Assembly (NCBI RefSeq): GCF_013371465.1
Contig: NZ_JABWDU010000006.1
Coordinates: 248,001-312,000 of the forward strand
DNA from: Ensifer oleiphilus
GTDB taxonomy: Bacteria; Pseudomonadota; Alphaproteobacteria; Rhizobiales; Rhizobiaceae
DNA length: 64,000 nucleotides
Direction of reading: 5' to 3'
Part shown: positions 5,247 through 36,171 of the stretch, piece by piece
Numbering within the stretch: the stretch's first letter is position 1
Layout: each line of letters begins with the position of its first letter
Program-made: the position numbers and the translations under genes
The notes under the pieces: model-generated
Seen by the model: only the letters and a program-made list of their open reading frames with translations
The model's database searches: none
Told to the model about the DNA's origin: nothing

Positions 5247-6380
5247 TCAGATCACGTAGGACTTCAAGGGCTCGAAGCCGTTGAAGGCGACGGCCGAGTA
5301 GGTCGTCGTATAGGCGCCGGTGCCTTCGATCAGAACCTCGTCGCCGATCGAGAGCGTGATCGGCAGCGGATACATCTTCTTCTCATAGAGCACGTCGGCC
5401 GAATCGCAGGTCGGGCCGGCCAGCACGCAAGGCTCCATCTCGTCGCCGTCGCGCGCTGTGCGGATCGGGTAGCGGATCGCCTCGTCCATGGTTTCGGCGA
5501 GACCGCCGAACTTGCCGATGTCGAGGAACACCCAACGGTGCGCGTCGTTGTCCGACTTCTTCGAGACGAGAACGACTTCCGCCTTGATCACGCCGGCATT
5601 GCCGACCATGCCGCGGCCCGGCTCGATGATCGTTTCCGGGATGTGGTTGCCGAAGTGCTTCTTCAGCGCGCCGAAGATCGCCTGACCATAGGCTTCAGCA
5701 GTCGGCACGTCCTTCAGGTACTTCGTCGGGAAGCCACCGCCCATGTTGACCATCTTGAGCTCGATGCCCTGCTTGGCCAACTGCACGAACACGCGCTTGG
5801 CATCAGAGAGAGCTGCATCCCAGGCGTCGAGCTTCGTCATCTGCGAACCGACATGGAACGAGACGCCGTAGGAGACCAGGCCATGCTGATGGGCGTAGAC
5901 GAGCACGTCGACGGCCATCTGCGGGACGCAACCGAACTTGCGCGACAGCGGCCATTCCGCACCTTCGCCATCGGTGAGCACGCGGCAGAACACGCGGGCG
6001 CCGGGGGCTGCACGGGCAACCTTCTCGACTTCCTCATGGCTGTCGACGGCAAAGAGCGACACACCGAGAGCGTGAGCGCGGGCAATGTCGCGCTCCTTCT
6101 TGATGGTGTTGCCGTAGGAGATGCGGCTGGCGGTCGCACCGGCGTCGAGCGCCATTTCGATTTCAGCGACGGACGCGCAATCGAAGGAGGAGCCCATGCC
6201 GGCGAGCAGGCGCAGGATTTCCGGCGCCGGGTTTGCCTTGACCGCATAGTAGATCGAGCTGTCCGGCATCGCGTGGCGGAAAGCCTTGAAATTGTCGCGC
6301 ACGACGTCGAGGTCGACGACGAGGCACGGGCCATCGGGTCGTCGGGTGTTGATGAAGTCGATGATGCGAGCCGTGGTCAT
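5247..6380 (-). CDS. odc2: Lysine/ornithine decarboxylase (fold type III, PLP)
   Basis: A 377-residue cytoplasmic enzyme that converts ornithine and/or lysine to putrescine/cadaverine. The start at 6380 (MTTARIIDFINTRRPDGPCL) follows AGGGGAATAAGG and gives the normal length for the alphaproteobacterial family; the longer open frame runs into the leader. Seen: the PLP lysine in YYAVKANPAPEILRLL (about residue 50), VGSQMTKLDAWD, the glycine loop NMGGGFPTKYL, EPGRGMVGNAGV, and the active-site Cys segment AGPTCDSADVL near residue 320. It is eukaryote-like (alanine-racemase fold), not the inducible bacterial type. Expression is probably controlled by the leader RNA immediately upstream. Whether lysine, ornithine or both are used cannot be settled here. 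Confidence 0.88.
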   Translation of the reverse strand: MTTARIIDFINTRRPDGPCLVVDLDVVRDNFKAFRHAMPDSSIYYAVKANPAPEILRLLAGMGSSFDCASVAEIEMALDAGATASRISYGNTIKKERDIARAHALGVSLFAVDSHEEVEKVARAAPGARVFCRVLTDGEGAEWPLSRKFGCVPQMAVDVLVYAHQHGLVSYGVSFHVGSQMTKLDAWDAALSDAKRVFVQLAKQGIELKMVNMGGGFPTKYLKDVPTAEAYGQAIFGALKKHFGNHIPETIIEPGRGMVGNAGVIKAEVVLVSKKSDNDAHRWVFLDIGKFGGLAETMDEAIRYPIRTARDGDEMEPCVLAGPTCDSADVLYEKKMYPLPITLSIGDEVLIEGTGAYTTTYSAVAFNGFEPLKSYVI

Positions 6381-6782
6381 GGCCTTATTCCCCTGATCCA
6401 AAATGCTCCGCCTGCGCGGAGGACAAAGGGCATACGCGCGAATGCTCTGGAACCAGCCGGTGGAGACCCCGGAACCAAGCATGCGCTCGATGCGCGAACG
6501 GTGAACCGAAGCCCGCCTAGGCTTCAATTCGGCTTTGTCTGCCATGGATTGGAGGGGATAACCCAACCGCACTTCCGGCAATGAAGGTGTGCCTCTTCAG
6601 TAACCCCGGCTGTTGGAGAGCCGGCAGACACCAGAAAGGCCCGCACCGTCGTTGCTTCAAGATGTCCTCGCATTTCCCGGTTGGCCGGAATAGCGACTGG
6701 AGGGGTTAGTTCCAGGTACCTTACCGATACCCTCACCTAATCGAGGGTCGGCGGACACCCACAGGCACGTGCGACTTTGGGC
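6381..6782 (-). ncRNA. Long 5' leader of the decarboxylase gene, speF-motif candidate
   Basis: About 400 bases separate the inferred promoter from the start codon. Reading frames here look accidental. The position (upstream of an alphaproteobacterial ornithine decarboxylase gene) and my recollection of the family match the speF RNA motif, a structured cis-element described by comparative genomics. Visible hairpins include CCGGCT/AGCCGG (6606-6624), GAAGCC/GGCTTC (6508-6525) and CTCCGC/GCGGAG (6406-6421), the last followed by CATTTTGG. The 6508-6525 stem competes with a CCGAA/TTCGG pairing using the same TTC, as expected of a switch. The exact ends are estimates. Confidence 0.68.
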
Positions 6783-6788
6783 AAGGCG

Positions 6789-6817
6789 TAGGTAAGAAAA
6801 AACCTTGTCGTAATCAA
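6789..6817 (-). promoter_or_regulatory. Candidate promoter of the decarboxylase leader
   Basis: On the minus strand, CTCTTGATT (the -35 hexamer TTGAT-T at 6812-6817) lies 17 bases from TACCTA (6789-6794). The -35 fits the rhizobial CTTGAC type; the -10 is weak. Transcription would start near 6782. Confidence 0.35.
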
Positions 6818-7084
6818 GAGTTTTTTCATCGCTGCTGTTGAATTTTTTTCGAGACCGGCAACACTCGCAATGTTCACGTTTACTGAACAATCGAAGCTGA
6901 CGTCATGACCGCCGCAAGCGATTGAAAGAACTGGATTTATTTCGACGTCTCGCCTATCCGATCATTGAACTCCGGATAGCGGACGAAATCGGCTGCAAAG
7001 ACAGCCGCAGAACAAAGAAACCTGAAAGAAGCACTCGCGGCGAATCAAAGCCCCGCGGCGAGGCAAGACGAGGAAAGACCGGCC

Positions 7085-7978
7085 ATGGACACGCTCACCC
7101 GCATCCGCGCCTTTATCGATGTGGTGGACGCCGAAGGGTTTTCGGCCGCGGCCCGCCGTGTCGGCCGGTCGAAGGCGCTGCTTTCAAAATATGTGCGTGA
7201 ACTCGAGGACGAACTGGGTGCGCTACTGCTCAATCGCACCACACGGCAATTCTCGCTGACGGAAGCCGGCCATACCTATTATCGCACGGCGTCGGAGATC
7301 CTGAAGGAGATCGACAATCTCGCCGACCTCGTGCGCGCCAACAATTCCGACCTCAAGGGCAGGCTGCGGATCACCGCGCCGCGCACCTTCGTCGATGCCG
7401 AGATCGGCCAGTCGCTGATCGATTTCGGCCAGCAGCATCCGGAGCTGTCGCTTGAAATCGTTTCCGACGATCGTTTCGTCGACCTCGTCGAAGAAGGTTT
7501 CGATGTCGCCATCCGCATCACACGGCTCGAAGATTCAACGCTGATCGCTCGCAAGCTCGACGATTTCCAGGTGTTGATCTGTGCGTCCCCGGATTTCCTG
7601 GAGAAGGTCGGGCCCATCGAACATCCGAGCGACCTGTCCAAGATCCCATGCATTCTCGACACCAACGGCCGGTCCTATTCCAACTGGCGCTTCATCGAGC
7701 CCGACGGATCCTCCTTCACCGTACCCGTCAGCGGCCCGATCGAGGTCAACAGCCCGCTTGCCTCCGTGCGCGCCGCCGTATCGGGCATCGGCGTGGCACT
7801 GGTGCCCGACTTCATCGCCCGCCCCAAGGTCGCCACCGGCGAACTCGTCACGCTCTTCGACGACTTCCTGCCGCGCGACCGCGGCATCTACGCGATCTAT
7901 CCGCATCGCCGCTACCTGCCGGCCAAGGTGCGCACGCTGGTCGACTACCTCCACACCTGGTTCCGCAAGCCGCGTTGA
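7085..7978 (+). CDS. LysR-family transcriptional regulator
   Basis: A 297-residue DNA-binding regulator. An N-terminal winged helix (residues 1-60: MDTLTRIRAFIDVVDAEGFS, AAARRVGRSKALLSKYVREL, LLLNRTTRQFSLTEAG) is followed by a periplasmic-binding-fold effector domain (about 90-295, RGRLRITAPRTF-like start, GIGVALVPDF). GAGGAAAG precedes the start. The closest style is the short CrgA/AaeR-like LysR group. LysR proteins often control the neighbouring gene. Here the divergent side holds the decarboxylase leader ~300 bp away, and downstream in the same direction lies the DUF1007-nicO pair after 106 bp. Either could be the target. Confidence 0.9.
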   Translation: MDTLTRIRAFIDVVDAEGFSAAARRVGRSKALLSKYVRELEDELGALLLNRTTRQFSLTEAGHTYYRTASEILKEIDNLADLVRANNSDLKGRLRITAPRTFVDAEIGQSLIDFGQQHPELSLEIVSDDRFVDLVEEGFDVAIRITRLEDSTLIARKLDDFQVLICASPDFLEKVGPIEHPSDLSKIPCILDTNGRSYSNWRFIEPDGSSFTVPVSGPIEVNSPLASVRAAVSGIGVALVPDFIARPKVATGELVTLFDDFLPRDRGIYAIYPHRRYLPAKVRTLVDYLHTWFRKPR

Positions 7979-35944: not shown

Positions 35945-36171
35945 CGTGAATAGCACAAAAAAAGCCTGCATCACGGAGGATGCAGGCCATCTTGCTGTGG
36001 GCGTTCGTGAGAGCGCAAGCCGGACGGGTCAGGGAGCTCGACTGCCGTTTCGTTGGCCACGGGAAGAAATCGGAAAAATTCCCGTGTTCACTACCTCCGT
36101 CTTGTCCGATTGGCACAGCCAGCGCCTCTCGCACGGATAACGTCCCATCCGGTCAATCGTTCCTGGAAACC

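Follow-up and report, generated by a model that had tools for sequence, protein, structure and literature searches.

A 402-nt leader before a rhizobial lysine/ornithine decarboxylase gene in which ar45 and speF may form one refolding RNA

The odc locus of Ensifer oleiphilus raises the question of why a decarboxylase gene is preceded by about 400 nt of structured RNA, and of how this RNA might control the gene. In the window, i.e., the whole stretch of 64,000 nucleotides analyzed here, odc occupies 5247..6380 of the minus strand, with its ATG at 6380-6378 and its end at 5247 (377 aa). Its product carries the Pfam domains PF02784 (Orn_Arg_deC_N) and PF00278 (Orn_DAP_Arg_deC), and its closest solved relatives bear the name lysine/ornithine decarboxylase. 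An earlier note on this DNA had placed a promoter-like pair ~400 bases from the start codon, which was confirmed: TTGATT (6817-6812), a 17-nt spacer, and TACCTA (6794-6789) stop 6 nt short of the first leader nucleotide (nt 1, 6782), itself 402 nt before the ATG. Judging from the promoter spacing and the ATG, the odc leader RNA thus comprises 402 nt (6381..6782), numbered here so that nt n is window position 6783-n, and the whole arrangement of promoter-like pair, ar45, speF, and odc is on the minus strand. The arrangement is kept among relatives, since TTG-N16..18-TA was present in 146/160 leaders when searched 4-10 nt before the same GCCC; the spacer was 17 in 136 of these 146, and the distance to GCCC was 6-7 nt in 145 of them, so that GCCC is probably at, or a few bases from, the 5' end of the transcript. 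This cross-species pattern search covered only the region before ar45. A stricter sigma-70 scan of 6300-6900 returned no promoter, and hence none near 6380 either. SmelC706, the Sinorhizobium meliloti counterpart, is tabulated with RpoH1/2 in the available text of PMC7143759, a listing that would imply control of the odc leader by heat-shock sigma factors.

The same note had seen no plausible gene between promoter and odc, and no conserved one was found. The odc reading frame is open upstream as far as a UUG at 6581 (444 codons overall); the corresponding upstream open frame varied from 6 to 162 codons in 30 of 59 loci, the 29 reverse-lying loci having been left out, which ruled out an N-terminal extension of odc. 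The relatives have the same odc start as 6380, and an automated annotation could set the start too far upstream, at the UUG. In comparisons with shuffled sequences, 1/100 shuffles was equally stable for the whole leader (z -2.43), and 13/200 for ar45 alone (z -1.57). A LysR-type regulator is encoded divergently from odc at 7085-7978 on the plus strand, and it may act on the odc promoter; in S. meliloti, SMc02984 is likewise reported to be divergent from SMc02983. Elsewhere in the window, Atu_At1 (RF02496), a further Rhizobiales sRNA family, gave an Rfam match at 36017-36125 on the minus strand with 93.5 bits.

Two Rfam families share this leader. The ar45 module (RF02347) covers nt 1-148 (6635..6782) with 171.7 bits against a gathering score of 40, and the speF module (RF00518) follows after 8 nt, at nt 157-311 (6472..6626), with 125 bits against 37, so the speF motif suspected in the earlier note is indeed there. 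Together with the COG0019-type ornithine/lysine decarboxylase downstream, the conserved start near the promoter, and the 5' stem (the ar45 part), this makes it about certain that the leader is a speF element. In a sample of 150 genomes of the order (E 0.001), speF was called in 70 and ar45 in 61. In 60 of the 61 ar45 genomes, ar45 was followed by speF on one strand with a gap of 6-12 nt, which was 8 nt in 44; in the remaining genome ar45 is likewise succeeded by a speF-like core and then odc, and the speF search had called another, odc-less place instead. A downstream odc was present in all 61. Nine speF calls came without an ar45 call, and seven of these loci pass both anchor motifs (L095 fails them, and L097 is without odc); in the seven, we take the top of ar45 to be altered or enlarged.

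In further samples speF was found in 103/121 genomes of the family and in 13/289 of the class, and an ODC-like gene was present at 167/171 speF loci. These 171 loci yielded 160 leaders (159 distinct) after four without odc (L097 among them; 25.1-27.6 bits) and seven lacking an anchor motif were dropped; of the latter seven, six carry a core GAGGC as well as GGGC at nt 141-144, and L095 has neither. Additional leaders were five from 11 stretches (four were not leaders and two were duplicate genomes) and two from three stretches (one was not a leader). Leaders of speF together with odc also occur outside the order, with an odc match at 9/9 such loci, and in three of them (L179, L180, L184) GUGAGG replaces the nearly invariant GUGCGG. 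One genome gave two equal-score speF matches (L037 and L173) near opposite ends of a single 4.53-Mb contig; these may be one copy repeated through redundant contig overlap.

Are ar45 and speF two elements or one? The alignment of the 159 distinct leaders (377 columns), in which all column pairs were ranked, contained a helix that joins them. P3 pairs GGUG within ar45 (nt 136-139; 6644..6647) with CACC within speF (nt 194-197; 6586..6589); its column pairs 137-196 (paired 0.97) and 138-195 (paired 0.94) were the third and the seventh of all pairs. The in-register states were GU/AC in 113 leaders, UA/UA in 24, AU/GU in four, and AA/UU in three, the remainder needing a shift, and with a shift allowed at least 3 bp were possible in 158/160. 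The paired fraction of P3 cells was 0.941 in the alignment and never above 0.818 in shuffles; its two-sided pair types (three) were not above those of the shuffles (maximum three). On the ODC tree the fewest changes were eight for one strand, nine for the other, and 12 jointly. A strand-swap control discriminated poorly, with at least three pairs surviving in 67% of swaps, and the aligned-column test was used instead. Since ar45 and speF lie at near-fixed spacing and this covarying helix connects the internal loop of the one to the core of the other, we take the two as one structure, and judging from the comparison of leaders they very probably form one fold. The unity of the halves is partly known already: an extended element appears in what is available of Corbino et al. 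(2005), while Rfam and the sRNA surveys separate the halves. An alignment for covarying stems, as the earlier note had advised, gave a positive answer, in P3 and also in P8.

The 3' strand of the ar45 closing stem has two possible partners. P1 pairs GCCC at the putative transcript 5' end (nt 1-4; 6779..6782) with GGGC at nt 141-144 (6639..6642), and such a 4-mer was available in 176/176 leaders, nt 1 being assigned from the best-pairing 4-mer within a 14-nt stretch. P4 reuses nt 143-144 with speF nt 191-192; its 5' strand is GCCUUUCUGGU (nt 143-153; 6630..6640) and its 3' strand ACUGAAGAGGC (nt 182-192; 6591..6601). In the P4 core (nt 143-148 with 187-192) each of the six positions was paired in 167-176 of 176 leaders, compared with 84/176 for 149-186. 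The pair 144-191 was C-G in 166 leaders, U-A in nine, and U-G in one, where pairing in 176/176 means only that no C faced an A, because the patterns used to locate the strands admitted just C or U at position 144 and G[G/A]C at positions 190-192. The hairpin capping P4 (nt 159-164 with 172-177; 6606..6624) had 0.941 of its cells paired (at most 0.878 in shuffles) and nine two-sided pair types (at most five in shuffles).

The three nucleotides that would make the competing pairs take coordinated states. The states at nt 1/144/191 were G/C/G in 166, A/U/A in seven, G/U/A in two, and A/U/G in one of the 176 leaders, six of the 10 variants coming from searches that required U at nt 144 (nt 1 and nt 191 free) and one further leader having been fetched as an odd case. 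All 10 still permit both pairs, and each of the three positions changed at least four times on the ODC tree. In the set chosen regardless of nt 144, three leaders have U144 (L099, L166, L168); all have A191 and two have A1. Named carriers among the leaders from the U144-requiring search are Ahrensia and Oricola. In shuffles of the main set, P1 and P4 were indistinguishable from plain invariance (P1 0.976 against a mean of 0.973). U147 opposite G188 is a wobble pair in 164/176 leaders, more than pairing alone would require. The extreme conservation and the coordinated states of nt 1, 144, and 191 suggest that both folds matter, and we consider it fairly probable from these comparisons that P1 and P4 are alternatives of which each has a role.

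Folding of the growing transcript (40 of 125 leaders) and of the whole leader (125 of 160 leaders) suggests an order in which the two could form. The mean probability of P1 was 0.95-0.96 during synthesis of the U-rich stretch, with 0-4 nt transcribed beyond GGGC; it dropped to 0.33-0.53 at +12 to +40 (0.08 at +16 in the window), and was 0.78 at +44 (window, 0.96). P4 rose after +44, to a mean of 0.60 at +48 (window, 0.97) and 0.83 at +52. In the whole leader P4 exceeded 0.5 in 110/125 and P1 in 3/125 (mean P1, 0.025); after extension by 27 nt of odc, the numbers were 101/125 and 0/125 (mean P1, 0.002), and P4 fell below 0.5 in 13/125. The ar45 segment alone folds with P1. In the window, the P4 prediction depends on flanking sequence: adding 27 nt of odc cuts it from 0.999 to 0.015.

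The U-rich stretch following P1 reads CUUUCU in the window (6633..6638) and UUUUUU in many relatives; at least five T were counted in nt 145-152 in 69/176 leaders, and the window has four. No terminator was found at this place by a scan of 6300-6900, and RNase processing would serve equally. The sole terminator-like match in 6300-6900 lay at 6406-6421 on the minus strand, just before the odc Shine-Dalgarno sequence, and consists of the 6-bp hairpin CUCCGCGCAGGCGGAG and a trailing CAUUUUGGAU; shuffles gave 0.8 such matches on average, and by eye a CUCC..GGAG hairpin with other inner pairs is kept in some close relatives. Published RNA sizes agree with ar45 being a shortened odc transcript, as far as the sources are available: in S. 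meliloti a 148-nt RNA (SmelC706, equal to the ar45 length) was reported at the same place (PMC2873474; PMC7143759), and in Bartonella ar45 was detected apart, with a speF probe showing a transcript of >700 nt (PMC7717549). We regard it as quite probable that ar45 is such a product.

Closer to the gene, the leader offers a second possible level of control. The P6 hairpin (GGG/CCC, nt 219-221 with 226-228; 6555..6564) sits directly 3' of GUGCGG, with 0.845 of cells paired and no shuffle above 0.715. It overlaps a candidate anti-Shine-Dalgarno segment, UCCCCU (nt 225-230; 6553..6558), which in the window fold pairs with the odc Shine-Dalgarno AGGGGA (nt 389-394; 6389..6394). This pairing, P9, had a probability of 0.99 in the window and >0.5 in 66/127 leaders (127 of 160 folded). 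When 56 segments along the 159 leaders were each paired with their own Shine-Dalgarno sequences, mean pairing was most stable at +2 and +6 (-9.9 and -10.1 kcal/mol), where the advantage over swapped sequences was also greatest (-0.98 and -0.80), followed by -0.58 at the adjacent +10 and -0.50 elsewhere. The permutation z for own-Shine-Dalgarno pairing was -6.8 with kinship ignored, a mean of 38% of foreign sequences pairing better than the own. On branch-disjoint pairs the effect was not significant (34 better, 26 worse, six ties; Wilcoxon p 0.077, and 0.17, 0.035, and 0.17 when the distance limit was varied). A control segment at +95 equaled the P6 segment in this test (34 against 26). The P8 loop UCUCCA was rejected as an anti-Shine-Dalgarno; it was weaker than P6 (own minus swapped, -0.50 at +94), yet equal in the pair test at +95. 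Forcing P1 left Shine-Dalgarno pairing unchanged (P9 mean 0.501 against 0.512), so no link was seen between the P1/P4 exchange and this layer. Whether P6 masks the odc Shine-Dalgarno sequence is, in our judgment, evenly balanced.

Several other stems accompany this framework. P0 would pair UCGCAC (nt 9-14; 6769..6774) with GUGCGG (nt 211-216; 6567..6572), six pairs being possible in 155/157 (157 of the 160 leaders fit the motif patterns), and the GUGAGG of the three leaders mentioned above is a mismatch in this strand. P0 is nearly invariant, and its predicted probability exceeded 0.5 in 90/125 leaders taken alone (window, 0.999) and in 26/125 once 27 nt of odc were appended (window, 0.004). 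P5 (UUGCC, nt 202-206, with GGCAG, nt 240-244; 6539..6581) has 5/5 pairs in 131/147 leaders and is also nearly invariant; both are too conserved to beat shuffles in the main set. The P8 hairpin (nt 311-314 with 327-330; 6453..6472) covaries in 103 Rhizobiaceae leaders; in the aligned-column test it was paired in 0.767, and shuffles reached at most 0.706. P7 (GACAAAG with CUUUGUC) is in the window fold and was recognized by eye in some Rhizobiaceae, and was not among the 45 stems listed in the covariation search of those 103 leaders. CGCAC (nt 10-14) could also face GUGCG (nt 137-141), a pairing that was dropped because many relatives read GUAG at nt 136-139. The two competing stems of the earlier note, GAAGCC/GGCTTC (6525-6508) and CCGAA/TTCGG, are both present and do share bases, but they are not conserved (4/160 and 8/160 downstream of the speF core). 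The six pairs of GAAGCC/GGCTTC formed in 49% of cells among 159 leaders (shuffle mean 43%, maximum 48%), and a one-column slide gave 66%; in the window fold they are part of a longer hairpin starting at nt 253-280.

On these grounds we hold, with somewhat more confidence than doubt, that the ~400-nt odc leader is one refolding RNA with an exchange of P1 for P4, in which ar45 is the shortened product, the speF fold marks read-through, and a second layer acts at the Shine-Dalgarno sequence; our confidence is held down because the P4 prediction for the window fails once 27 nt of odc are added. The leader would be a single extended speF element whose first 148 nt are ar45 and most of whose rest is speF. 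P1 is predicted to form as the U-rich stretch is transcribed. RNA polymerase would then stop, or the RNA would be cut, near that stretch, giving the ar45 RNA; alternatively transcription would continue, P4 would replace P1 once ~48 more nt have emerged, P3 and P4 would rebuild the 3' strand of ar45, and the odc mRNA would be committed. Because the competing strand of P4 follows the U-rich stretch, P4 could only lock in read-through and not cause it. In the second layer, of which we are less sure, the P6 segment of speF would pair with the odc Shine-Dalgarno sequence, and the P6 hairpin would have to re-form for translation. The signal biasing the first choice may be, as a guess, one from the polyamine pathway acting on the nascent ar45 fold. 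A polyamine- or ribosome-responsive switch had been proposed in the earlier note; the comparison supports a switch controlling odc, made of other stems than those named there (P1 against P4, and the P6 region against the Shine-Dalgarno sequence), and its ribosome-responsive variant is unsupported, as no conserved leader peptide was found among the 154 of 160 leaders examined.

Such a peptide, sensed by the ribosome as in the enterobacterial speF leader, is very improbable here, even though GAGG followed by an invariant UUG (nt 202-204; 159/159) opens a frame in the window and LPxVR recurs among the 40 shortest frames listed. In the 154 of 160 leaders examined, all spacer lengths between 18 and 28 occur from GUGCGG to GGCAG, without steps of three, the three frames relative to odc are taken by 56, 53, and 45 leaders, and the open length runs from two codons upward; AUG at nt 238-240 exists in just 46/159 leaders. 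A peptide starting at UUG nt 202 or AUG nt 238 was therefore rejected. That ar45 is instead an independent trans-acting, Hfq-binding sRNA gene standing beside a speF leader with its own promoter seems improbable to us. The surveys of S. meliloti do class it as an sRNA, it runs separately from speF on Bartonella Northern blots, and it co-precipitates with Hfq in S. meliloti as cited in the available part of PMC7717549; against this, ar45 never occurred without odc downstream in the 61 genomes bearing it (of 150 in the order), and the covarying P3 connects it to speF. A released ar45 RNA may have a second, regulatory role.

Two further readings lie closer to ours. Gene context, the near-invariant core, and the segment pairing with the Shine-Dalgarno sequence would all suit a classical metabolite riboswitch at equilibrium, the ar45/speF core serving as the aptamer for a polyamine or a polyamine precursor, and this reading is compatible with the refolding leader; we think it unlikely, as in-line probing of the A. 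tumefaciens leader (nt -400 to +3) was negative for ornithine, lysine, meso-diaminopimelate, putrescine, cadaverine, and spermidine (PMC1273637). Only these six compounds are named in the available text of that paper, and homospermidine is absent from it. A static structured leader, with ar45 as a stable product of RNase processing and with P1 and P4 as successive folds that regulate nothing, also strikes us as rather unlikely: it accords with the scan that found no terminator at the U-rich stretch and with the indifference of Shine-Dalgarno pairing to forced P1, and it is opposed by the extreme conservation and the coordinated states of nt 1, 144, and 191, which suggest that both folds matter. 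Parts of the refolding model and of its rivals are not mutually exclusive.

As a bolder and more tentative form of the refolding model, to which we give somewhat less than even chances, the speF/ar45 leader would be a co-transcriptional strand-exchange switch whose P1 fold exists only in nascent or truncated RNA, and hence beyond the full-leader probing of 2005. In this form ar45 would be the OFF by-product, and speF a read-through lock carrying the mask of the odc ribosome-binding site. Homospermidine is a main rhizobial polyamine. It would be one candidate for the signal, and since nt -400 to +3 are predicted to be mostly in the P4 fold, the 2005 probing may have missed a signal acting on the earlier fold. 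The element family was already known; what is new here, as read from sequence comparison and folding models, is the refolding proposal (P1/P4), P3 linking the halves, the P6/Shine-Dalgarno pairing, and P8. No proposal of a P1/P4 exchange or of such Shine-Dalgarno pairing was found in the portions of the open-access literature available. If the leader is one refolding RNA, two orphans, speF (described since 2005 with no known ligand) and the ar45 sRNA, become one question. The earlier negative ligand tests would then gain a possible reason, and a few pair mutants at nt 1, 144, and 191 would test the mechanism.

The enterobacterial speF leader has a leader peptide, and its decarboxylase belongs to a different enzyme family. 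It resembles the rhizobial one in being an ornithine decarboxylase leader with alternative folds, as described for Salmonella in the available part of PMC6386406, and differs in its peptide, a conserved counterpart of which was not found in the 154 of 160 leaders examined here. The attenuators and Shine-Dalgarno-masking riboswitches share an early closing stem by a U-rich stretch, a later competing stem, and a possible Shine-Dalgarno mask; here there is no strong terminator and no known ligand, and the competing strand lies 3' of the U-rich stretch. The nearest relative is speF itself (RF00518; Corbino et al., 2005; PMC1273637), which as presented in the accessible text also precedes a decarboxylase gene, is conserved from near the putative transcription start, and has at its 5' end a stem whose large top varies, and then a long bulged stem-loop holding ~80 conserved nt. 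In that text the last >150 nt are left unassigned, no mutually exclusive pairing is described, and the term Shine-Dalgarno is absent, whereas the P6/Shine-Dalgarno pairing is proposed here; the ligand of speF is given as "?" in the part of PMC3766115 available. With ar45 (RF02347; smrC45, SmelC706) the leader shares the covariance-model family and, according to the accessible S. meliloti reports, the length of 148 nt; ar45 is catalogued as an sRNA, while it appears here as the first part of the odc leader.
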